From contig JAAOYC010000059.1 of NCBI GenBank assembly GCA_018221125.1, forward strand, positions 1-34,847: a stretch of 34,847 nucleotides of DNA, given 5' to 3'. Position 1 is the first letter of the stretch. Every line of letters begins with the position of its first letter. The notes beneath the pieces were generated by a model. The model made no database searches. It worked only from the letters and a program-made list of their open reading frames with translations, and had not been told where the DNA came from. The stretch comes from Candidatus Woesearchaeota archaeon. GTDB taxonomy: Archaea; Nanobdellota; Nanobdellia; Woesearchaeales; WJKL01. The position numbers and the translations under genes were made by a program. Positions 2,637 through 33,478 of the stretch are shown here, piece after piece.

Positions 2637-3605
2637 ATGGCCTTAGCAAATTTTATAGCAGCAAATCCCTTGATATTCCACATCCTTATTGGAATAGCCA
2701 GCTTTACCATCATGGTAAAATCTGCAGACATGATTGTCTATGGCATAGACAGGTATGCAAAAAAAACAGGCTTGTCAAATTATGTCATAGGATTATTAGT
2801 CATATCAATAACAGCTTCTGTTCCAGAATTTGTAGCTGCAATTACCGGGCTTTTGGCAGGAGATGAAGGAATTGTCTTTGGAACCATATTAGGCTCAAAC
2901 CTGACAGGAATCACATTAGTTTCAGGAGTTCTTGCATTAGTGGGAAGAAAACTGAAACTAGTGAACAAAGTCCTGGCAAAGATGGAAGTTGCTTTGTTTT
3001 TCATGATAATGCTCCCTTTTGTCTTAGGAGCAGACGGCTCTTTATCAAGATATGATGGGCTTATCCTGTCAGTAGTCTATATAATATATGCTGTAAAGAT
3101 ATGGAAAAGAGAAGAAGAAACAGGGCATGTTAGAAAAAGTGTTAAATTTAAGTTCTTATGGAAAAATATGCTGATATTCCTCCTCGCATTAGCAGCCTTA
3201 TTCCTCAGTTCAAGATGGCTTGTATTTTCATCAATCAGTGTCTCGAAAATCCTGAATATTCCGACATATATCATGGCTATACTCATCCTGGGAATAGCAT
3301 CTTCTCTTCCAGATATGCTGGTTGGAATAAGATCAATATTAGAAGGAGAAGCAGGACTTGGCCTTGGAAACACTCTTGGAAGCATAACAGTAAAATCTCT
3401 TTTGTTTCTCGGAGTCTTTGCCATGATAAGGCCCCTTTCAGTAGATTTCAGTACAATTGGAATTGCAGTATTAGCAACAATATTCTGCCTTGCATTTATG
3501 CTCTACCTTTCTGAAAAAGGGGAAATTAACTGGAAACATGGCTTGGTTTTATTATTCCTCTATATCGCATATATCTCAGTTGAATTAATAAGAGGTCTTG
3601 CATAA
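2637..3605 (+). CDS. CaCA-family sodium/calcium exchanger-like protein, copy 1
   Basis: A membrane cation exchanger of the CaCA family (YrbG-like), 322 residues, about ten hydrophobic segments. Two alpha-repeats are visible. The first, near residues 55-100, has the usual signature (ASVPEF and LGSNLTG). The second, near residues 215-260, is altered: ASSLPDMLVG has Asp where exchangers usually have Glu, and the usual GSN is GSI (LGSITVKSLL). The ATG at 2637 follows the ATPase stop by 7 bases. The next gene is a paralogue starting 1 base after this stop. The altered second repeat suggests changed ion binding or work as one half of a heteromer with the neighbour, which is inference. Confidence 0.85.
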   Translation: MALANFIAANPLIFHILIGIASFTIMVKSADMIVYGIDRYAKKTGLSNYVIGLLVISITASVPEFVAAITGLLAGDEGIVFGTILGSNLTGITLVSGVLALVGRKLKLVNKVLAKMEVALFFMIMLPFVLGADGSLSRYDGLILSVVYIIYAVKIWKREEETGHVRKSVKFKFLWKNMLIFLLALAALFLSSRWLVFSSISVSKILNIPTYIMAILILGIASSLPDMLVGIRSILEGEAGLGLGNTLGSITVKSLLFLGVFAMIRPLSVDFSTIGIAVLATIFCLAFMLYLSEKGEINWKHGLVLLFLYIAYISVELIRGLA

Positions 3606-5678: not shown

Positions 5679-6241
5679 TGGCAAAAAACGATTACTCAAC
5701 TTTACTAATAGTCTTGATTATCATTTGGATAGTTGTCTCTATTGTAGGGATAGGATTAGTTCTGCATAAGCAAAAAATAATAACAGGACATGCAACAGCT
5801 CAAGTTATGGTAAATGTAATCCCACCACCAGCTCCACCAGTCCCTCCAGTACCACCACCAGAAGTAGTAGCACCAAGACTAACAATCTGTGCAGAAGAAT
5901 GGAATTGTACTGATTGGGGATCATGCCTGCCAAATGGAACACAATTTAGACATTGCTGGGATTTAAATAAATGTGAAGGTCTTTATAATCAAAGGATTGT
6001 TACTCAGATAGAAAGAGCAATAAAGCCAGATGAAGTTAGGGCATGTGAATATATTTCTCCACCATCTATTGAAAAACCATCTCCATTATTCATAATTATA
6101 ACTCCAACAGTTATAATTAATTACATAATTTTATTTACTCTATTAATTATCTTGTTTATCATCTTATTTTATATTAGATATATGGTAAATAAAAAACCTA
6201 AAAAGTCAGAAAAAAAGAAACAGAAAATAAAAAAATCATAA
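5678..6241 (+). CDS. Membrane protein with two spans, Pro-rich linker and TSP1-like motif
   Basis: A small membrane protein of about 187 residues, not assigned to a named family. It has an N-terminal span (about residues 10-30), then a proline-rich stretch (PPPAPPVPPVPPPE), then a Cys/Trp module with EWNCTDWGSC followed by FRHCWDLNKC that resembles a thrombospondin type 1 repeat. A second long span follows at about 135-160, and then a Lys-rich tail. The Cys module would sit outside the cell, and such modules usually bind proteins or glycans. The ATG at 5678 overlaps the permease stop; the longer ATG at 5663 lies inside that gene. It ends exactly where the opposite-strand gene ends, with no gap. 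Confidence 0.75.
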   Translation: MAKNDYSTLLIVLIIIWIVVSIVGIGLVLHKQKIITGHATAQVMVNVIPPPAPPVPPVPPPEVVAPRLTICAEEWNCTDWGSCLPNGTQFRHCWDLNKCEGLYNQRIVTQIERAIKPDEVRACEYISPPSIEKPSPLFIIITPTVIINYIILFTLLIILFIILFYIRYMVNKKPKKSEKKKQKIKKS

Positions 6242-6661: not shown

Positions 6662-7770
6662 TTAGACCACGCAAGATAAGCTATTAATAATATCACTGCC
6701 CCTATAAGGACAATAATCCATAAATTTCCTTTTTTCTTGACTTCTATATCAAAACTCTTTTCAGAGGTTTTGTCTTTGTAATGCAGAATTGTTTTAACCT
6801 TGTATTCTCCAAAGCCTATCCCTGTTGAATCCCAAAATATCTCTATCTGTTCTTTGCCCCATGCAGAAATATCTATTTTCTTGCTTTCAGCACTGCCTAT
6901 AACTCTTCCATTTTCATAGATCTCAATTACAGCATAAATATCAGTTATCTTTTCATTCCATTTGCTTTCAACATCAAGTATAAATTTTGCAATCTCTCCT
7001 GGACTAAACTCATTTGTTTTAAGAGCAACTATCTCTATTAAAACATCTCCAACATTAAAACTTGTTCTAATCTCTTTTTCATTTCCATCATAATCAATTA
7101 AAGCTGCTGCTTGGTATGTTCCTGGTTTTGCATCCTTGGTATCCCATTGTGCTTTTAATTCACTGGTTTCTCCTGCTTTCAACTCCTTTTTATCAGCTGA
7201 TACTGTATCTATTTTCTTATCATCTGAATCATAGATATCAATTACAGCACTAACACTTGAAATATCCTCTTTTCCAAGATTAGAAATTCCTATAATTAAC
7301 TCAGCAGTTTCTCCTACCCTCACACTCTCAACAGCAATATTGGCTGATAGATACTTGCCTTCATAAGGAACCTCTATATATAATTGCGATTCAACACCTG
7401 CTTTTGCAGCAACCATTGCACCATCTGCGCCGATAGGAGATTCCAATGCTCCAATCCTAATGTCATTTGTTCCTGGCCTGTCTATTTTCTCAGGCAAAGC
7501 CAGATGAACAACAATAACCTGCGTCTTGCCTGGATTAAGTTTAAAAGAAGTCTTGTCAAAAGCAATATATTCTTTTAGGTCTCCTTTGACATACATGTCA
7601 ACATTAACAGGGCTTTGTATCGTATTGACAACAAAATATTCAATATCAATCTCCAGATTAGGCTCAAAATCTATTTTTATTCTAGGAGGGCCTATTCCAA
7701 TAGCACTTGCAGATAGCGCAGAACTTAGAATAAGCATGCAATAAACTATAAGTAAATAAAAATTTCTCAT
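6628..7770 (-). CDS. Secreted CARDB-like beta-sandwich protein with C-terminal anchor
   Basis: A 380-residue exported protein. A signal peptide (residues 1-23) is followed by an N-terminal beta domain containing GPPRIKIDFEPN, then two CARDB-like adhesion modules (about 140-240 and 245-340). A C-terminal membrane span at about 350-370 is followed by a positively charged tail (KWGRKSKEKEQ). The start is set by a Shine-Dalgarno-like GAGGTG at 7779-7784, eight bases before the ATG. CARDB modules serve in cell adhesion in archaea and bacteria, and the architecture is that of a surface protein facing outward. It probably shares a transcript with the neighbouring secreted proteins. Precise role unknown. 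Confidence 0.8.
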   Translation of the reverse strand: MRNFYLLIVYCMLILSSALSASAIGIGPPRIKIDFEPNLEIDIEYFVVNTIQSPVNVDMYVKGDLKEYIAFDKTSFKLNPGKTQVIVVHLALPEKIDRPGTNDIRIGALESPIGADGAMVAAKAGVESQLYIEVPYEGKYLSANIAVESVRVGETAELIIGISNLGKEDISSVSAVIDIYDSDDKKIDTVSADKKELKAGETSELKAQWDTKDAKPGTYQAAALIDYDGNEKEIRTSFNVGDVLIEIVALKTNEFSPGEIAKFILDVESKWNEKITDIYAVIEIYENGRVIGSAESKKIDISAWGKEQIEIFWDSTGIGFGEYKVKTILHYKDKTSEKSFDIEVKKKGNLWIIVLIGAVILLIAYLAWSKWGRKSKEKEQ

Positions 7771-9597: not shown

Positions 9598-11337
9598 ATG
9601 TCGCAAGAACTAATCTACAAAGAACTTATTGAAACAATCATAAAAGAACATCCATCAAAGATTAGATTAAATAGATTAAAGCATAGCATCTGCAGGAAAT
9701 ACAAAGTAAAAAAACATCCAACAGATATCCAGATTCTTCTTCATGCAACCTCAACACAAGCAAATAAGTTAAAACTCATCACAAAGCCAACAAGAACAAT
9801 CTCAGGAGTTGCAGTTGTTGCAGTCATGTCTTATCCATTCTCATGCCCTCATGGAAAATGTCTGATGTGTCCAGGAGGTCCTGATTCTGTCTATGGTAAT
9901 GTCCCTCAATCCTATACAGGAAAAGAGCCAGCAACAATGAGGGCATTAAGAAATGAATTTGACCCATACAGGCAAGTCATGAACAGGCTTGAACACTATA
10001 TTGTCATGGGACAGTCTCCTGAAAAAGTTGAATTGATCATAATGGGCGGAACTTTCCCTTCTTTCAACAAAAAATATCAGGAAAACTTTGTAAAATACTG
10101 TTTCAAAGCAATGAATGACTTCTCATCTTTGTTCTATAAAAAAGGAAAATTCAATTTCAAGAAATTCAAAGACTTTTTCGAACTTCCAGGAGCAGTAGAT
10201 GATCCACTAAGAGCAAAACACATCAAAGCAAAGCTAGTTAAACTTAAGAAAATCAAGCTAAGGAGGACGGAGGGGGTGGGAGAAGCAATGCTGCTGCGGA
10301 AAGGGCGGGCAAATTCAAGCTCTCTCCAAGCAGAACAAAAGAAAAATCAATCTTCAAACATCAAATGTGTTGGTTTAACATTAGAAACTCGGCCAGACTT
10401 TGCAAAGCTAAAGCAAGCAAATGAAATGCTAAAACTAGGCTGCACCAGAGTAGAGCTTGGAGTTCAGTCTGTATATGATAAAGCACTAAAAAAAATCAAG
10501 CGTGGACATTCTGTTCAAGATACAATAGAATCAATAAAGATTCTAAAAGATTTAGGATTCAAGATCAATGCTCACTACATGTTGGGCTTGCCTGGAATAT
10601 CTAAGAAAGAAGATTTAGATGGATTAAAAGAACTATTCAATAACCCAGATTTCAAGCCAGATATGCTAAAACTCTATCCATGCATGGTTGTAGAAGGAAC
10701 TAAACTCTATAATCTTTGGAAAAAGAAAAAATTCAAGCCAATGACAACAAAACAGGCTGCTAATCTAATTGCAAAAGCAAAGAAATTCATTCCAAAATAT
10801 GTAAGAATCATGCGTGTTCAGCGTGACATCCCAACCTATATGACCGCAGCAGGAGTTGACAGGACTAATCTAAGGCAGTATGTTGAACAGATAACAAAAA
10901 AACAAAAAATCAAATGCAAATGCATAAGATGCAGGGAAATAGGCAGAGCAAAAACAATAGCAAAACCAAAAATAAAAGTAATGTACTATAATGCTTCAAA
11001 TGGAAATGAATTCTTTATCTCAGCAGAAGACAAATACAATAATCTATTCGGATTCTGCAGATTAAGATTCCCAAATCAATCTTTAAGAAAAGAGATAACA
11101 GAAGACTCTGCTTTAATCCGTGAATTGCATGTTTATGGTCCTGCAACTGCAATTGGAAAAAAAGGAAAGATTCAGCATAAAGGAATTGGAAAAAAGCTCT
11201 TAAAACAGGCAGAAGATATAGCAAAGATGTATCATAAAGAAAAAATAATCATAATCTCTGGGATTGGTGTAAGAGATTACTATAAAAAATTAAAATATAG
11301 ATTAGAAGGACCCTATATGGTTAAGAGACTTATTTAG
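9598..11337 (+). CDS. elp3: Elp3, tRNA uridine(34) acetyltransferase/radical-SAM enzyme
   Basis: Archaeal Elp3, 579 residues, makes the carboxymethyl-type modification at wobble uridine 34 of tRNA. Domains in order are an N-terminal helical tRNA-binding region, a radical-SAM barrel with Cys83, Cys88 and Cys91 (CPHGKCLMCPGG), and a C-terminal GNAT acetyltransferase domain near residues 440-579 with the acetyl-CoA loop around HKGIGKKLLKQAED. The segment of about residues 222-253 (from RRTEGVGEAM to QKKNQSS) interrupts a variable region before the conserved VGLTLETRPD. It is encoded by an abnormally G-rich stretch that recurs in the gene at 31970. A palindromic TATA box (9566-9575) lies 27 bases before the ATG, implying leaderless transcription. 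The 3' end overlaps the opposite gene by 8 bases. Confidence 0.95.
   Translation: MSQELIYKELIETIIKEHPSKIRLNRLKHSICRKYKVKKHPTDIQILLHATSTQANKLKLITKPTRTISGVAVVAVMSYPFSCPHGKCLMCPGGPDSVYGNVPQSYTGKEPATMRALRNEFDPYRQVMNRLEHYIVMGQSPEKVELIIMGGTFPSFNKKYQENFVKYCFKAMNDFSSLFYKKGKFNFKKFKDFFELPGAVDDPLRAKHIKAKLVKLKKIKLRRTEGVGEAMLLRKGRANSSSLQAEQKKNQSSNIKCVGLTLETRPDFAKLKQANEMLKLGCTRVELGVQSVYDKALKKIKRGHSVQDTIESIKILKDLGFKINAHYMLGLPGISKKEDLDGLKELFNNPDFKPDMLKLYPCMVVEGTKLYNLWKKKKFKPMTTKQAANLIAKAKKFIPKYVRIMRVQRDIPTYMTAAGVDRTNLRQYVEQITKKQKIKCKCIRCREIGRAKTIAKPKIKVMYYNASNGNEFFISAEDKYNNLFGFCRLRFPNQSLRKEITEDSALIRELHVYGPATAIGKKGKIQHKGIGKKLLKQAEDIAKMYHKEKIIIISGIGVRDYYKKLKYRLEGPYMVKRLI
10265..10313 (+). repeat. G-rich element, copy 1, inside elp3
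   Basis: A 49-base stretch in elp3 that shares its first 23 bases exactly with the copy at 32144 (starting GGACGGAGGGGGTGGG), then differs in a 4 versus 3 base loop and two single bases. It contains the paired G-tracts GGGGG-T-GGG and GGG-C-GGG, with a short stem AGCA / TGCT between. Its base composition is far above the AT-rich surroundings. Read here as REV-type codons RTEGVGEAMLLRKGRA. A 7-base TCAAGCT occurs at 10253-10259 and again at 10315-10321. Whether it is an inserted element or a shared trait cannot be settled without other genomes. Confidence 0.8.
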
Positions 11338-16113: not shown

Positions 16114-16521
16114 TTGCCTGACTTATTACTAACAGAACTAAGAAAAATCCAGAAGAAAGATGGTTATATTTCTGAACAAGCTATTAAGAAACTAAACAAG
16201 AAAACAGGAATCCCTTTATCCAATATCTATGGAACAGCAACTTTCTACGCAATGCTTCACACAACACCTCAGGGAAAATATATCATAGAAATCTGCAACT
16301 CTCCATCATGCTTTCTAAACAACTCATTAAACATTATCAAATACATAGAAAATAAATTAAAAATCAAATCAGGCCAGACTTCTAAAGACAAAAAATTCTC
16401 ATTACATATTGGCTCATGCATTGGCTGCTGCGATAAAGCTCCTGCAATGCTCCTAAACAAAAAACAATACACAAATCTTACAAAAGAAAAGATAGATTTT
16501 ATCCTAAAAAAATTAAAATAA
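16114..16521 (+). CDS. hydC: NuoE-like [2Fe-2S] subunit of HydABC-type hydrogenase
   Basis: A 135-residue thioredoxin-fold ferredoxin of the NuoE/HndA family. It carries one [2Fe-2S] cluster and passes electrons between NAD(H)-linked and hydrogenase subunits. The four ligands are visible: Cys61 and Cys66 (ICNSPSC), and Cys102 and Cys106 (SCIGCC). It also has IYGTATFYAML, a family hallmark, and is shorter than typical NuoE at its N-terminus. The start is a TTG preceded by AAGGGGTG (16101-16108), a Shine-Dalgarno-like site, with a TATA-like box at 16067-16075. It is the first gene of a five-gene run: the NuoF gene starts 2 bases after its stop. Confidence 0.9.
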   Translation: MPDLLLTELRKIQKKDGYISEQAIKKLNKKTGIPLSNIYGTATFYAMLHTTPQGKYIIEICNSPSCFLNNSLNIIKYIENKLKIKSGQTSKDKKFSLHIGSCIGCCDKAPAMLLNKKQYTNLTKEKIDFILKKLK

Positions 16522-16522
16522 G

Positions 16523-17637
16523 ATGCAAATAAAAAAACAAACAAAAGGAAAAGCATTGGCAAAAGCAAAAAAGCTAGGCCAGAAAGCAACTATCAATCTA
16601 ATCAAAGAAAAAGTATTACTAGGAAGAGGAGGGGCAGGCTTTCCAACAGGAACAAAGTGGGAAATGGTCTATAACGAACCAGAAAAAGAAAAATATCTTA
16701 TCTGCAATGCAGATGAAGGTGAGCCAGGAACATTCAAAGACAAATTCATTCTTGAAAAAAATCCAGAACTGGTTATTGAAGGAATAAAAATAGCAATGTT
16801 TGCAATTGGAGCAAAAAAAGCATTCATATATCTAAGAGGAGAATATGAATATTTAGAAAACAGACTAAAAAAACTAATCAAAAAAGCAAATATAGAAATA
16901 GTAGTCGGAGCAGGAGCATATATCTGCGGAGATGAGACAGCAATTCTTGAATCAATAGAAGGAAAAAGAGGGCAAGCAAGATTAAAGCCTCCATTCCCAA
17001 CAGTAAAGGGTCTATACGGAAAGCCAACAGCAATCAACAATGTAGAAACATTAGCAAATGTTCCATTAGCAATCTATTACAAAGACTGGAATCCAAATCT
17101 TAGATTATATTCTTTATCAGGAAACGTAACAAAACCTGGAATCTATGAACTTCCATTAGGAACAAAACTTTGTGATTTAATCAAATTAGGAAAGCCAAAA
17201 AACAAAATCAAAGCAATTTATTTCGGATGTTTTGGAGGATGCATGCCTCATTGTGAAAAAACAAAACTAACACCAGATGATATCTGTGGAAAAGACTGCA
17301 TACATGGAGCAGGAACAATAATAGCTGTCGATGAAAAACATAGTATTGTAGATGTAGCAACAAACATTGCAAAATTCTATGAGTTTGAATCCTGCGGAAA
17401 GTGTACACCTTGCAGAGAAGGAACAATGAGAATCTTAGCATTACTGGAAAATATCTCATTAAAAAATGCAGATATGAAAGACCTAAACACACTGCAAGAG
17501 CTTGCAGAAGTGATCAAAGAGACTTCTTTCTGTGGATTAGGCCAGACATCAACTAATCATTTACTGACAGCCTTAAAATATTTCAGAAAAGAGTTTGAAG
17601 AAAGAATAAAAGAACAGAAAGACAGGAGAAGGATAAG

Positions 17638-17641
<4 letters not shown>
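16523..17641 (+). CDS. hydB: NuoF-like NADH/FMN subunit of HydABC-type hydrogenase
   Basis: A 372-residue flavoprotein that oxidises or reduces NAD(H) with FMN and one [4Fe-4S] cluster; in electron-bifurcating hydrogenases it is the bifurcation site. Visible are the FMN/NADH loop GRGGAGFPTGTKW, NADEGEPGTFKD, an SLBB-like middle, and the [4Fe-4S] ligands Cys291, Cys294 and Cys297 (CGKCTPC) with Cys337 (SFCGLGQ). It lacks both the N-terminal thioredoxin-like domain and the C-terminal two-cluster ferredoxin domain seen in many HydB/HndC proteins, so it is a minimal version. The stop overlaps the hydrogenase start (ATGA). Confidence 0.92.
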
Positions 17642-21511
<3,870 letters not shown>

Positions 21512-23897: not shown

Positions 23898-26800
23898 ATG
23901 AAACAAAAAATACTATCTATAACAAGTATATTCTTATTTTTAATAGTTCTATTTGCATCCTCTGTTGCAGCAGTTGATAGTGCTGACTTGACAGCATCAG
24001 ATACTACAGTTGAGACAACTGTTACACTTGTTGCAACAGCTGTAGAAATAACATCTACGCTCGACAGCCTTATATTCTATAGAGATGATGCTGAAATAGA
24101 AACAATTGACTGCAATCACAGGCATTCTTGTGTTTATACAAGAACAGAGATAGAAACAAATGCAACAACTCATGAATACAAATTTAAAGCTATTGGTGAT
24201 GACCAAAGTGAAAAATGGTCAAGTGCAGTAGATATTACATTCACAGGATTTGTTTATGAACAACCTGAATGGTCAAATGCAAATGCAACACCTGCAACTC
24301 CAGCAATATACGACCCATTACAAGAATATACTTTCACAGTTGATTGGGAATTATCAGACTGGTATCCTGATGTAGAATATGTTTTCTTTGAAAGCAACAT
24401 AACAGGTTCATTGGCAAATGAATCAACAACAAGAAATTACCATACTTATACTTACACAATAACAGGACTTGATGTAGGCAATTATCTTTGGAGAATGCAT
24501 GCAAGCGATGAACAAAACAATACAAATGTTACAGATGATTTTACATATACAGTAATACCAGCAGACCCAGTAATAGCTCTTACATTAAATGGAGCTGCAG
24601 CTGACCTAACTGTAGTAAGACCAGCTACTGTTCTTGCAGAAGCTGAAATAGTTACAGGAGAAGCAGCAAGCATGAATCTTTATCAAAACACAACACTTCT
24701 TGGACCTGTTCAGGAAAATATACAATACCCAATTACTTTCAATGAAAGTGGTTATTTTGAAGTTATTCTAGAATACACTGGAACAAGTAATTATAATCCA
24801 TTTAATGTATCTTTGTTTGTTAATGTTACAGACAATGCAGCACCAGGCCCAATAACAAATGTAACATCTAATGTAACAGATTATTCAATAACATGGAATT
24901 GGCTACCTCCTGCAGATGATGACTTAAATCATACAACTGTAACACTTTATGATGATGCAACTAATACAACTGTATCAACTCAGACTGCTAATGCAACAGC
25001 AACATCTGTTATATTCACAGGACTTAACCATAATTCAACATACACAGCTAGTTTCCAGACATTTGATTTGGCTGGAAATACAGATACAGCAAATATTGTA
25101 AATCATACAGCTACAACACTTTATGATAGTTTCCCACCTTTATGGTCAAATGCAATTGCATCTCCAGTAAGTCCTATTGATTATGATGTATCACAAGCAT
25201 ATCAATTTAATGTAACTTGGACAGACCCAAGACTAGACATTGTATGGGTTGAACATAATTTCACAGGAGTTCCACAAAATATTACAGTTACAACAAACAG
25301 CAGCAATGAATATTATTATAATTATTCAGTACTTGGTGCAGGAAATTATTTCTGGAGAATGTTTGCAAATGATACTCTAGGAAATGTAAACAGCACAGAC
25401 ATCTTTTCATATATAGTAAACAAAGCAGCTTCTGTTGTAAATCTTTTATTGAATACAGTTGGAAGTGATCTAACAGTAACTTATCCAGATACTGTAAATG
25501 CGTCCTTCACTTCAAACAGCGGACTGGCTGTGATGTACAGAAACGGAACAGATGTAACATCAGAAAACAATCTTGATGTAATCCTAGGAGCAGGTTATTA
25601 TAATTACACTGTTGCTGTTCCTGATAATCAGAACACTACAGCAACATCTCAAACATTATTTGTAACAGTACTTCAAAACACATCATCCTGTACATTGACA
25701 TTCACACCATCAACAGGATTAGATGATTATACTCCAATTAATGCAAGCTGTGTTTGCACAAATCCAGAAGCTACTGAAACATTATACAGGGGCGGAATAG
25801 ATGTAACTGGTGCTGAAAATAACCAATACACAACATTATCAGCAGGAAACCATAGTTACATATGCAACGTAACAGCAACACAGAATTATACAACGGCAAC
25901 AGACTCTGCAACAATATCAGTTGCTTTAGCTCCAAGATTAACAGGAGACATACAGATTAATGAATTTATGGCAGACTCTTCAACAGAAAATGATTGGGTT
26001 GAACTTTACAATAATGATTCTGTTGCAATAAATATAACTAACTGGGAAATAAATGATACAGGAAGCGCTACTGCAGCAGCTACTCTAACTGGCCTATTAA
26101 ATCCAGGAGAATTTATACAAGTTTATGTTAGCAATAGATTAGATAACGGTGGGGGAGAATCTATTGAATTAATTAATACTACTGGAGGAGTTATTGATAC
26201 TTATGCTGTAGGAGCAGGAGTTCCTCAAACAGATGTATCTATTGGTAGATATCCAGAAGGAACAAGCAACTGGTATGACCAGGAATATCCAACACCAAAT
26301 GCTACAAACATTGGCCCTGATTCAGTAGCTCCAGTAATAAACTCAGTTTCAGATACACCAGACCCTCTTAATGAAGGACAGAACATTACTATAACAGCAA
26401 ATGTTACAGATAATATAGGTGTGGGCACTGTATTGGTTGAGATAGAAGGAACAAATTATACGATGGTTGCTGGAACAGGAGATTTATGGAATTACGATTT
26501 TAATACAACAGGCTTAGCAACTGGACTGCACAGCTACACAATCTATGCAGACGATGTTTATGCAACTCCTGCTGTTTCACAAGGAGGAAGTTTCACTATT
26601 TTAGATACAACAGCACCTGTAATAAATTCAAATACAGCTTTACCAGCTCCAGTTGAAAGAGGAACTGATATAACAATAACTGCAAATGTTACTGACGATG
26701 TTTTAGTCAACTCTGTTTTAGTAGAAGTAGCCGGAGTAAACTATACAATGGTTGCTGGAACAGGAGATTTATGGAACTATAATGTTCCTACAGGAGCATT

Positions 26801-28271
26801 ATCAACAGGAGCTAATGGTTATACTATCTATGCAGATGACAGTTCAGCAAATCCTGCAACTCCTGCAGTTGGAAGCTTTAATGTTCAGGACACAGCTGCT
26901 CCTTCAATAAATTCATCAAGTCCAACTGGAACTGTAAGCCCAGGTACAATAACTATCCAATTAACAACAAATGAGATAGCTGTCTGCAGATACAACACAA
27001 CAGATGAAGCCTGGGAAAATATGACTCAAATGCCAATAACAAATGCAATGAGCCATAGTTTAGACCAAACTTTATCAGATGGAAACTATAATTATTATTT
27101 CTTGTGTGAAGACAGCATTCCCAATAGGATGAATTCAAGCCACCATTTGCAATTCAGTGTATCAACACCTGCAAGTCCACCAAGCAGTTCATGTTTCCCT
27201 GCAGGAACTAAAATATTAATGGAAGGCAATACTGAAAAGAATATTGAAGATGTTGAAGTAGGAGATATTGTAATCGGATTTGATGGAAATAAAAATATCC
27301 CTGTTAAAGTTCTTGAATTAGAATCACCAATAAGAGATCATTTATACACTCTTACATTTGAAGACGAATCTACACTACAATTAACAGAAGAACATCCTCT
27401 TTATACAAGAAACGGTTGGAAATCAATCTCACCAGAAGCAACAGCTAAAGAAAATGCTCAATTAGATGTAGGTGAAATAAAGATAGGGGATGAAGTATTA
27501 AACAGCGAAGGAAAATTCATAGAAATAATTGATATGAGTTATGAAGAAAAAAGTGTTCAAACATATAATCTAAAAAGCGTATCTGAATATAATAATTTCT
27601 TTGCAAATGGTTTCCTTGCTCATAATAAAGGTGGAAGTTCAGGATCTAATACTTACTACATTGATTTAACAAAAGAAGGAGAATCAGTAATATTAGCAAG
27701 AAACGACAGAGCTGTATTTGATTTCAAAGATGAGCAATACGAAGCAAGGAATACAGAGATTAGATCAGGAGCAGTTACATTAAGAGTTGGCACAACAACT
27801 GCAGTATTCAGCCTAGGAGATGAATTGGAATTTGACCTGGACAGTGATGGTGAAAATGACATATCTATAATACTAAACGGATTGGGAACTAAAGCAACTG
27901 TATTGATAAAATTAGCAGGTGAAGAAGCTCCAGAGATAATAACAACTACAGCACCTTCAGAACCAAAAGAACCATCTAAACCAAAAACTCTTGCAAGAGT
28001 ATTCAAAGAAGAAGTTAAAGAAGAGATATCAGCAGTAGGAGGCGCTTCTATGTTCTTGTCAAAAATCCAAAGTGCGCTAAATTCTTTTTATATAAGATAT
28101 GTGATGATAGGAATAATAATCCTTCTGATTGTACTTGCTTTGCTCAGCAGCAAAATGGAAAAAGCAGGAGCAGTAGTTGCTAAAGTAAGCAGTAAAGTGA
28201 AAGGAGTTAACATAAAAGAAAAAGCCAGTAAAATAAAGAAAGCAGTTAAAAAGAAAATAAAAAAGAAATAA
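23898..28271 (+). CDS. Giant surface protein with FN3, lamin-tail, Ig-like and Hint domains
   Basis: A 1457-residue cell-surface protein. In order: signal peptide (1-24); two related Ig-like units of the LWRMHASD / FWRMFAND type; an FN3 domain at about 315-405; Ig-like units; a lamin-tail domain at about 680-805 (IQINEFMADS, GDIQ). Two near-identical Ig-like repeats follow at about 810-1000 (YTMVAGTGDLWNY twice). A Hint (intein-like) domain spans Cys1099-Asn1243, then a small beta domain (1245-1360), a membrane span at about 1402-1421, and a Lys-rich tail. There are many N-glycosylation sequons. Hint residues present are CFPAGTKI, TEEHPLY (TxxH) and terminal His-Asn, but the next residue is Lys. 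The domain could cut the ectodomain from its anchor. It is very likely co-transcribed with the previous gene. Confidence 0.9.
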   Translation: MKQKILSITSIFLFLIVLFASSVAAVDSADLTASDTTVETTVTLVATAVEITSTLDSLIFYRDDAEIETIDCNHRHSCVYTRTEIETNATTHEYKFKAIGDDQSEKWSSAVDITFTGFVYEQPEWSNANATPATPAIYDPLQEYTFTVDWELSDWYPDVEYVFFESNITGSLANESTTRNYHTYTYTITGLDVGNYLWRMHASDEQNNTNVTDDFTYTVIPADPVIALTLNGAAADLTVVRPATVLAEAEIVTGEAASMNLYQNTTLLGPVQENIQYPITFNESGYFEVILEYTGTSNYNPFNVSLFVNVTDNAAPGPITNVTSNVTDYSITWNWLPPADDDLNHTTVTLYDDATNTTVSTQTANATATSVIFTGLNHNSTYTASFQTFDLAGNTDTANIVNHTATTLYDSFPPLWSNAIASPVSPIDYDVSQAYQFNVTWTDPRLDIVWVEHNFTGVPQNITVTTNSSNEYYYNYSVLGAGNYFWRMFANDTLGNVNSTDIFSYIVNKAASVVNLLLNTVGSDLTVTYPDTVNASFTSNSGLAVMYRNGTDVTSENNLDVILGAGYYNYTVAVPDNQNTTATSQTLFVTVLQNTSSCTLTFTPSTGLDDYTPINASCVCTNPEATETLYRGGIDVTGAENNQYTTLSAGNHSYICNVTATQNYTTATDSATISVALAPRLTGDIQINEFMADSSTENDWVELYNNDSVAINITNWEINDTGSATAAATLTGLLNPGEFIQVYVSNRLDNGGGESIELINTTGGVIDTYAVGAGVPQTDVSIGRYPEGTSNWYDQEYPTPNATNIGPDSVAPVINSVSDTPDPLNEGQNITITANVTDNIGVGTVLVEIEGTNYTMVAGTGDLWNYDFNTTGLATGLHSYTIYADDVYATPAVSQGGSFTILDTTAPVINSNTALPAPVERGTDITITANVTDDVLVNSVLVEVAGVNYTMVAGTGDLWNYNVPTGALSTGANGYTIYADDSSANPATPAVGSFNVQDTAAPSINSSSPTGTVSPGTITIQLTTNEIAVCRYNTTDEAWENMTQMPITNAMSHSLDQTLSDGNYNYYFLCEDSIPNRMNSSHHLQFSVSTPASPPSSSCFPAGTKILMEGNTEKNIEDVEVGDIVIGFDGNKNIPVKVLELESPIRDHLYTLTFEDESTLQLTEEHPLYTRNGWKSISPEATAKENAQLDVGEIKIGDEVLNSEGKFIEIIDMSYEEKSVQTYNLKSVSEYNNFFANGFLAHNKGGSSGSNTYYIDLTKEGESVILARNDRAVFDFKDEQYEARNTEIRSGAVTLRVGTTTAVFSLGDELEFDLDSDGENDISIILNGLGTKATVLIKLAGEEAPEIITTTAPSEPKEPSKPKTLARVFKEEVKEEISAVGGASMFLSKIQSALNSFYIRYVMIGIIILLIVLALLSSKMEKAGAVVAKVSSKVKGVNIKEKASKIKKAVKKKIKKK
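26458..26790 (+). repeat. Tandem duplicated Ig-like unit in the surface protein gene
   Basis: The same run of bases (ATGGTTGCTGGAACAGGAG and beyond, about 28 bases) occurs near 26463 and again near 26749, about 287 bases apart, each in a copy of an Ig-like unit with YTMVAGTGDLWNY. The neighbouring units share the ITITANVTD phrase. This is a recent internal duplication, or one kept alike by gene conversion. Confidence 0.8.
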
Positions 28272-29583: not shown

Positions 29584-29919
29584 ATGGGAAAATACCAAAA
29601 AAAGCCTCAAAAGCAAAAAGAGATTGCAAGAGAAAGAATCAAAGTTTTATTTGAACAGGCAAAAAAAACATTTAGAAAAGATAAAAAACTCTCCAATAGA
29701 TATATCAAGCTAGCTCGGGAACTAGCAATGAAATTTAAGATAAGAATCCCATCAGAACTAAAAAGAAGATTCTGCAAGCATTGTTATTCTTACTTAATGC
29801 CTGGAAAAAATGTAAGAGTAAGAACTAGAGAGGGCAAAGTTGTCTATTACTGCCTAGAATGCAAAAAATACATGAGATTTCCTTATTTAAGAGAAAGGAA
29901 AGCAAAGAGGAAGAAATAA
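29584..29919 (+). CDS. rnp4: RNase P protein component 4 (Rpp21/Rpr2 type)
   Basis: A 111-residue protein of the archaeal/eukaryotic RNase P, which trims the 5' leader of pre-tRNA. The zinc ribbon is visible: RFCKHCYSYLMPG with YYCLECKKYMR, four Cys as CxxC...CxxC. Two N-terminal helices (KEIARERIKVLFEQAKKTF) bind its partner Rpp29. It ends in the basic tail RKAKRKK that contacts RNA. A TATA-like box at 29551-29560 sits 28 bases before the ATG. The stop overlaps the start of the dph2 remnant (TAATG). Recognition is confident from length and zinc ribbon. Confidence 0.9.
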   Translation: MGKYQKKPQKQKEIARERIKVLFEQAKKTFRKDKKLSNRYIKLARELAMKFKIRIPSELKRRFCKHCYSYLMPGKNVRVRTREGKVVYYCLECKKYMRFPYLRERKAKRKK

Positions 29920-30173
29920 TGCAATACGACTTAGAATTATCCAAAGCAATAGCAGAAATCAAGAAAACTAAAGCAAAGCTAGTCTGCATCCAGCTGCCAG
30001 ACGGATTAAAAACAGAAGCAAAGAATATACAAAAAGAAATAGAAAAACAAACAAATGCAGATGTTGTTATCTGGCTAGGAAGCTGCTATGGAGCATGCGA
30101 CACTCCAACAAATATTGAAAAGCTTGGCATTGACTTACTAATACAATGGGGGCATTCAAAGTGGACATATTAA
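29919..30173 (+). pseudogene. dph2: Dph2 N-terminal fragment (diphthamide synthesis), truncated
   Basis: This 84-residue frame matches the first domain of archaeal Dph2, the radical enzyme that starts diphthamide formation on elongation factor 2. Visible are CIQLPDGLKTEA and the cluster-ligand region GSCYGACDTPTN, ending in a Dph-like LLIQWGHSKW. Full Dph2 has about 330 residues in three domains, each giving one Cys ligand; here domains two and three are absent and a stop follows KWTY. The next gene begins inside the last 28 bases in another frame. A deletion or frameshift remnant is likely, but expression of the fragment cannot be excluded. Confidence 0.8.
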
Positions 30174-31969: not shown

Positions 31970-33478
31970 ATGATTACAATATTAGATTGTTATACAGATG
32001 AACCAGCTGGATTAGGTGTCCCACCTTATCTAGGCACATATCCAAGATACATTGCTGGCAGTCTTGACAAAATTCCAACATATCTAACAATAGATGACTT
32101 GAGACTGTATAAGCTGCAACTCAAGCAGCAGCAAGAACAAGGTGGACGGAGGGGGTGGGAGAAGCAGTTTGCTGCGAAAAGGGTGGGCAAAGTAATTAAG
32201 CCTTCTCAAAAAACAGACATAAAAACCTACAACCTAACTAAGAACTTCGAAAACATCCAAGATATTCTAAACAACACCAAGGAACTAATAATAATAGCTG
32301 GAGTCCATACACCAGGAAAATACCTATCTGCTGTTCCAGGAACATTAAAAGAAATCATAAAGCTGACAAAAGACATATCCTGCAAAAAAATATTAACAGG
32401 TCCAGCAGTCTATGGCACATCAGCAGAAGGAGGAAAATTCTTTGAACGTGTAGATTTATCAAACTTCCAAAAAATAAAATTCTTCAATCCATCATATGAT
32501 GAAATAAGAGATTTTGCTGTCAAAGGAGCAGAAATCATAAAGCAGATTCCCGACTTGAGAATCATTGAATTAGAAACTTCAAAAGGCTGCTCAAGAGCAA
32601 AGCACTGCAGTTTTTGCACAGAGCCTCTGAAAAACAGAATTTCATTCAGGAAAAAATCAGATATTCTAAAAGAAGTCAAAGCTCTAAGCAGACTAGGAGT
32701 AAAACATTTCAGATTAGGAAAACAATCCTGCTACTACAGCTATCCAGAAGCAGTTGAAATCATAAAAGAAATAAGAGAAAAGTTCAATCCAAAAGTTCTG
32801 CATATAGACAATGTAAATCCTGCTAATGTTATAACAAAAAAAGGAGAAGAAATAACAAAAGCTATTGTCAAATACTGCACAGAAGGAAACACAGCAGCTT
32901 TCGGAGTAGAATCATTTGACCCAGAAGTTATAAAGCAAAACAATCTTAATTCAGACCCGGAAACAACTTACAAAGCTGTAAAACTAATCAACAAATATGG
33001 CAAAACTCCAGGACCAAATGGAATGCCAAAATTCCTGCCAGGCATCAACCTATTATTCGGATTGATTGGAGAAAGCAAGACAACAAATGAACATAATACT
33101 AAATGGCTAAAGAAATTTCTCGACGAAGATTTGCTGCTAAGAAGAATCAACATAAGGCAGGTAGATATCTTTGAAGGAACTCCTTTATACAATACTGTGG
33201 GGAATAAATTCATAAAAAAGAACAAAAAATATTACTGGAAATGGAGAAATCAAGTAAGGCAGGAAGTTGACTGGCCAATGTTAGAAAAAATTACTCCAAA
33301 AGGAACTATTTTAAAAGATGTTAGAACAGAAATTTGGGATGGAAAAACAACTTTCGCTAGGCAAATAGGAACTTATCCATTAATAATAGGAATAAAGCAG
33401 CGTCTAGAATTAAACAAATTCATCAACATTAAAGTAACAGGACATATGTTAAGAAGTATTATTGGAGAGGTTGTTTAA
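31970..33478 (+). CDS. Radical-SAM protein, YgiQ/UPF0313-like
   Basis: A 502-residue radical-SAM enzyme of unknown reaction. The cluster motif is C-x5-C-x2-C (GCSRAKHCSFC, Cys207, 213, 216), a wider spacing than the usual C-x3-C-x2-C. The segments GVHTPGKYLSAVPG and FGVESFDPEVIKQNN and the barrel pattern resemble archaeal relatives of YgiQ, and a C-terminal TRAM-like end (NIKVTGHMLRSIIGEVV) may bind RNA. Residues about 58-74 (GGRRGWEKQFAAKR) are encoded by a G-rich stretch nearly identical to one in elp3. A TATA-like box at 31941-31948 lies 26 bases before the ATG. The 3' end overlaps the opposite gene by 4 bases. Confidence 0.8.
   Translation: MITILDCYTDEPAGLGVPPYLGTYPRYIAGSLDKIPTYLTIDDLRLYKLQLKQQQEQGGRRGWEKQFAAKRVGKVIKPSQKTDIKTYNLTKNFENIQDILNNTKELIIIAGVHTPGKYLSAVPGTLKEIIKLTKDISCKKILTGPAVYGTSAEGGKFFERVDLSNFQKIKFFNPSYDEIRDFAVKGAEIIKQIPDLRIIELETSKGCSRAKHCSFCTEPLKNRISFRKKSDILKEVKALSRLGVKHFRLGKQSCYYSYPEAVEIIKEIREKFNPKVLHIDNVNPANVITKKGEEITKAIVKYCTEGNTAAFGVESFDPEVIKQNNLNSDPETTYKAVKLINKYGKTPGPNGMPKFLPGINLLFGLIGESKTTNEHNTKWLKKFLDEDLLLRRINIRQVDIFEGTPLYNTVGNKFIKKNKKYYWKWRNQVRQEVDWPMLEKITPKGTILKDVRTEIWDGKTTFARQIGTYPLIIGIKQRLELNKFINIKVTGHMLRSIIGEVV
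32144..32191 (+). repeat. G-rich element, copy 2, inside radical-SAM gene
   Basis: A 48-base stretch in the YgiQ-like gene, near identical to the copy in elp3. It is translated in another frame (GRRGWEKQFAAKRVGK), so the likeness is at the nucleic-acid level and not due to shared protein function. It has G-tracts GGGGG-T-GGG and GGG-T-GGG around a stem AGCA / TGCT with a GTT loop. Similarity may continue past the core (AAGCCTTCTC here, AAGCTCTCTC in elp3). It sits between the conserved TIDDLR segment and the next conserved strand of the host protein, where an insertion would be tolerated. Confidence 0.8.

Follow-up and report, generated by a model that had tools for sequence, protein, structure and literature searches.

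The window analysed here, a stretch of 34,847 nucleotides, is contig C40 of a draft genome of 965 kb in 68 contigs, which is AT-rich (35% GC) and 79% complete. Judged by its gene content and relatives, the organism is probably a DPANN archaeon. It carries two radical-SAM genes, each with one copy of a G-rich unit inside its coding sequence (Table 1). The first is elp3, encoding the radical-SAM/GNAT enzyme for modification of tRNA U34. The second belongs to the YgiQ/UPF0313-like group, and we take YgiQ-like to be the appropriate name for it. In the YgiQ-like protein, the insert is located on the N-terminal side of the radical-SAM domain (residues 202-347).

Table 1. Host genes, copies and central stems of the G-rich unit, in window coordinates
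Feature	Position	Strand	Description
elp3, host of copy 1	9598..11337	+	TIGR01211 E = 2.5e-196; Pfam Radical_SAM, Radical_SAM_C, ELP3_N
G-rich unit, copy 1	10260..10313	+	54 nt, inside elp3, codons RRTEGVGEAMLLRKGRA
Short stem, middle of copy 1	10284..10295	+	AGCA-(ATGC)-TGCT, direct reading
YgiQ/UPF0313-like radical-SAM gene, host of copy 2	31970..33478	+	Pfam Radical_SAM E = 3e-11
G-rich unit, copy 2	32139..32191	+	53 nt, inside YgiQ-like radical-SAM gene, codons GGRRGWEKQFAAKRVGK
Stem, copy 2	32163..32173	+	AGCA-(GTT)-TGCT, direct reading
Insert segments in the two genes			RRTEGVGEAMLLRKGR and GGRRGWEKQFAAK

Three other regions of the window were noted. By motifs read by eye, three genes at 16114-19314 resemble those for NuoE, NuoF and the catalytic subunit of [FeFe]-hydrogenase, here in an archaeal genome. 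A motif reading of 23898-28271 suggests a large secreted or surface protein; towards its C-terminus it would contain a Hint/intein-like segment (CFPAGTKI... to FFANGFLAHN). The short ORF at 29859-30173 is similar to the start of diphthamide synthase (LVCIQLPDGLKTEA...GSCYGACD), ends at an early stop and may be a truncated gene.

Structure of the G-rich unit

The similarity between the two copies starts with an exact core of 23 bases (10265-10287 and 32144-32166), followed, after a spacer of 5 nt in copy 1 and 4 nt in copy 2, by a second block of 21 bases with two mismatches (10293-10313 and 32171-32191). Both blocks were present exactly as given in the preliminary description. Upstream of the core, 5 further nucleotides (AAGG and one mismatch) were aligned, and with these included the shared element is slightly longer than the approximately 48 bp originally proposed. 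The complete alignment consists of 48 identities, 5 mismatches and one 1-nt gap, corresponding to a divergence of about 10%, and gives the consensus AAGG[A/T]GGACGGAGGGGGTGGGAGAAGCA(3-4 nt)TGCTGCG[G/A]AAAGGG[C/T]GGGCAAA. In 100 dinucleotide shuffles of the window, no match to the 23-base core was observed even with up to 3 mismatches allowed. Within 240 kb of the organism's own genome, the copy pair gave E = 2.8e-11 by self-BLAST, and the two copies were the top G-rich 48-mers, the remaining G-rich 48-mers of the sampled sequence lying within ordinary coding sequence. The GC content of the copies, 67% and 60% against the background of 35%, agrees with the earlier view of G-rich segments in an AT-rich genome.

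In the middle of each copy, a 4-bp stem AGCA/TGCT is placed between two pairs of G-runs, which in copy 1 are GGGGGTGGG and GGGCGGG, a layout compatible with a G-quadruplex. Of the six differences between the copies, three (the 1-nt gap and two mismatches) fall in the stem loop (post-hoc hypergeometric p = 0.003). By G-quadruplex-aware folding, a quadruplex was predicted in both copies (about -25 vs. -5 to -7 kcal/mol). By ordinary folding, the flanked region was no better than shuffles (plus-strand z-scores, 0.47 and 1.31), and an ordinary hairpin was rejected on this ground. The layout GGGGNGGG...GGGNGGG was found sporadically in relatives; it is not diagnostic, because the reversed control pattern was also found there. 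As far as these folding predictions go, the central stem and the G-runs may have some role.

Terminal inverted repeats were not detected, the ends AAGG and CAAA not being inverted repeats. Target-site duplication consistent between the two insertion sites was not observed either; an old one could have decayed. The elp3 copy is flanked by a 7-bp repeat TCAAGCT (10253 and 10315), which was rejected as a target duplication because, at 62 nt, its offset is not in frame and ygiQ has no counterpart of it.

Reading frames and state of insertion in orthologues

In each half of the unit, the codon phase of copy 1 was found to differ from that of copy 2. As previously proposed, the two copies are read in different frames, indicating that their homology is at the level of DNA and is not explained by protein homology. 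Each copy is free of stop codons in all six frames, a state observed for 0.3% of random 54-mers of the window and for 9% and 2% of shuffles of the same composition. With all six frames open, an open reading frame is easily kept after insertion, and both host ORFs are indeed open across the insert.

Orthologues of the two host proteins were drawn from 60 genomes belonging to the family and order of this archaeon. The insert sequence was absent from every orthologue covering the site, 29 of 29 for Elp3 and 25 of 25 for the YgiQ-like protein, including the same-family relatives G002 (Elp3, 64% identical) and G001 (YgiQ-like protein, 76%). Both inserts fall in variable loops, in agreement with the variable stretches noted in the preliminary description. 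The modal net gain was 19 amino acids (57 nt) in both genes (16/29 for Elp3 and 14/25 for the YgiQ-like protein); the difference in length was 18-21 residues against every Elp3 orthologue and at least 19 residues against 22 of the 25 YgiQ-like orthologues. The remaining three YgiQ-like orthologues (L047, L050 and L060) carry unrelated additional residues in the same loop, indicating that this loop is tolerant. In either gene, the shared identity stops abruptly at AAGG on one side and CAAA on the other. Since the net gain is close to the length of the shared unit and the ends coincide in both genes, the inserted thing is the unit itself, as would be expected of a discrete entity. At an offset of 57 nt, no match in frame was detected. 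Judged from the aligned sequences, the segments in elp3 and the YgiQ-like gene are real insertions and not ancestral sequence. The same sequence was inserted twice, in different frames and with identical ends, and is absent from the relatives.

The draft state of the genome, with its 68 contigs, might suggest that a chimeric or contaminating stretch was placed in the two genes by assembly or binning. Such an artefact would tend to give broken frames and identical copies, but here six positions, the indel among them, distinguish the two copies, and each gene is still in frame with the insert at a loop; we consider this explanation scarcely credible.

AlphaFold models of the two host proteins gave mean pLDDT values of 87.4 for Elp3 and 86.5 for the YgiQ-like protein. 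Both models were thus confident as a whole, and in each the main part with low confidence (pLDDT<50) coincided with the insert, at residues 220-239 in Elp3 and 65-78 in the YgiQ-like protein. In the alignment of Elp3 to the solved Elp3-family structure 6ia8, residues 177-238 of the query, containing the insert, were absent. Low pLDDT would be expected at segments without homologues, so it is partly trivial and counts as weak evidence.

Both copies are on the sense strand and both keep the G-quadruplex layout, as might be expected if the unit were selected for a function in mRNA or protein, either as a G-quadruplex that slows translation, as an in-frame translational bypass or as a spliced RNA segment. 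In-frame bypass has been demonstrated in synthetic constructs (PMC5009743). Against a selected function, the relatives lack the insert in both genes, ordinary folding of the flanked region does not exceed that of shuffles, and an insert of in-frame length requires no removal. We therefore judge a selected function to be very unlikely.

Search for further copies, sources and machinery

By pattern and sequence-model searches, only the two copies were found in the 79% of the genome that was recovered. No copy was detected in 145 and 381 genomes of relatives, a set without a same-genus genome, or in a phylum-wide sample of 371 genomes; recent copies in close (same-genus) relatives are possible. 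The search with the core, as suggested in the preliminary description, recovered the two known copies and none further. Of the two findings that together would have spoken against the reading in the preliminary description, only one was obtained: the copies number just two, but neither insert is present in any orthologue. One extra model match, in G067 (L068), is located within an unrelated gene, in its coding sequence, and was taken as chance.

The composition of the unit, foreign to this genome, would fit the capture of one outside template twice by end joining, the template being either DNA of a virus, a plasmid or a partner organism, or a structured RNA of which a DNA copy was made. Searches of viral contigs, phages and plasmids gave matches at chance level only: 16-mer matches in viral contigs had only the G-rich start in common, and the matches to a Synechococcus phage and to plasmids had E > 1. 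Among GTDB species contigs, a single exact 19-mer match was found, on a Gemmatimonadetes contig (L003), and was regarded as chance. No Rfam family reached the gathering score, and relaxed thresholds gave chance matches only; a structured-RNA origin was rejected for lack of a real match in this search. For the same 54 nt to be captured on two occasions, each time with the same ends, a discrete small source molecule is also required. With no source found beyond chance, double capture is improbable.

With respect to machinery, neither a Y1 (HUH) transposase (PF01797 search of G000) nor a reverse transcriptase was found in the genome, 79% of which was recovered. A sample of 205 kb of the organism's own sequence showed no clear second case of one unit in two unrelated genes, and the other short repeats were mostly intergenic or confined to one gene.

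Several of these other repeats were recorded. An intergenic repeat of about 53 bp, GGGC...GCCC (GGGCGGATTGTTTTTGGTTAGTGCCCC), is present in the same genome as two copies nearly in tandem, with a third, inverted, on another contig (L084:6160-6282 and L076:4661-4713). A mostly intergenic repeat of 66-73 bp is present in three copies, 85-92% alike (L085:5380-5454, 5800-5872 and 6815-6880). The motif CACTGGTCACTGGACAT or its complement is located between genes on three contigs (L087:2035-2055 and 2928-2948; L086:3292-3318; L088:17471-17497). Finally, a LAGLIDADG endonuclease gene (L087 2085-2885, minus strand, contig C39; Pfam LAGLIDADG_3) is flanked by two 73-bp direct repeats, 97% identical, the second of which overlaps the 3' end of a tRNA gene with a long intron (2964-3128, minus strand). 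This region, L087:2014-3128, has the appearance of a small element that integrated at the end of a tRNA gene.

Comparison with known short elements

Rickettsia palindromic elements (RPEs), with which the unit was compared in the preliminary description, are palindromic repeats of 100-150 bp that are inserted in frame in unrelated genes and encode a conserved peptide (PMC10969869, PMC3767692). Like RPEs and the Wolbachia palindromic elements, the present unit is a short repeat in frame in unrelated protein genes and is tolerated in the protein. In other respects the comparison did not hold. The unit, with its core of 54/53 nt, is half the size of RPEs; RPEs form a palindrome or stable hairpin over most of their length, whereas the unit has only the 4-bp central stem; RPEs are present in many copies per genome, as compared with two in the recovered 79% here; and the RPE peptide is conserved, whereas the unit is read in two frames. 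RPEs also constitute multi-copy families, and orthologues from related species carry them at the same locus, in contrast to the absence of the unit from relatives.

Closest to the unit in size and composition are the GC clusters of yeast mitochondria, which are mobile, GC-rich sequences of 30-80 bp, some of them located in rps3/VAR1 and altering the size of the protein (PMC4464245). Both are GC-rich units in an AT-rich genome. GC clusters are, however, palindromic and number about 120 per genome, whereas the unit, in an archaeal chromosome, has two copies and no long palindrome. Although the unit would work in the manner of a GC cluster or an RPE, it was classed neither as an RPE, with which only in-frame genic insertion is common, nor as a GC cluster, given the palindromes and abundance of the latter. 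The translational bypassing elements (byps) of Magnusiomyces mitochondria, for which an origin from GC clusters has been proposed, are likewise short blocks inside coding genes; in most cases they break the reading frame, and the ribosome skips them. Prokaryotic MITEs and REP/RAYT are small non-autonomous units able to fuse in frame with host genes (PMC10969869). Unlike these, the unit was found without terminal inverted repeats, target-site duplication, multi-copy state or Y1 transposase.

Origin of the unit

The two copies are located 21.9 kb apart on the same strand of the same 35-kb contig, and by our own arithmetic (34.8/965 kb) the chance of a second copy falling on the same contig is about 3.6%. 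This arrangement counts in favour of the main rival to a mobile unit, as do the low number of copies (two in 79% of the genome) and the lack of transposition hallmarks. The rival is a one-off templated insertion without any mobile element: a sequence, whatever its origin, would first have entered either gene, and about 54 nt would subsequently have been copied to the other when the polymerase switched templates during repair. Templated insertion by microhomology-mediated template switching is an established outcome of repair in human cells (PMC8421209). For this to apply here, the copied tract must match the borders of the first insert and carry along no sequence of the host gene, but the identity ends sharply at AAGG and CAAA with the same net gain in both genes; the divergence of about 10% further indicates that the copying was not fresh. 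We regard templated insertion as somewhat unlikely.

The explanation to which we give about an even chance is a low-copy, lineage-specific, mobile or copyable short insertion unit that is tolerated in coding DNA. According to this model, a discrete G-rich unit of about 54 nt would have entered the chromosome twice, once in elp3 and once in the YgiQ-like gene, and both insertions would postdate the split of this lineage from all sampled relatives. Each would have added 57 nt (19 codons) net in a loop, leaving both proteins full length and probably still working, with a disordered additional loop. Being G-rich and free of stops in six frames, the unit would be tolerated where the net insert is a multiple of three, while insertions of other lengths would have been purged. 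The unit may have been moved by machinery acting in trans, and the G-runs and central hairpin, a possible G-quadruplex, may take part in the movement. The short mobile element put forward in the preliminary description thus stands as a unit inserted twice in frame, and its mobility is what we infer.

A mobile family distributed genome-wide is disfavoured by the presence of only two copies, on the same contig and strand, with no hallmarks of transposition. The wider proposal is that the unit represents an undescribed family of G-quadruplex-forming mobile units of about 54 nt in a DPANN-like archaeon, which insert into coding sequence and survive by means of six open frames. Its other copies would then lie in the 21% of the genome that is missing, or in strains of the same genus outside the present sample. 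We find this proposal rather unlikely at present; two copies are a lead and not yet a family.

In-frame insertion of short repeats into working protein genes is known mainly from Rickettsiales and from the genomes of organelles. A clean case in a small archaeal genome, where dozens of orthologues have the site empty, would show that proteins of such an organism can gain a loop via a short repeat, and the 54-nt unit may serve as a probe for finding the machinery.
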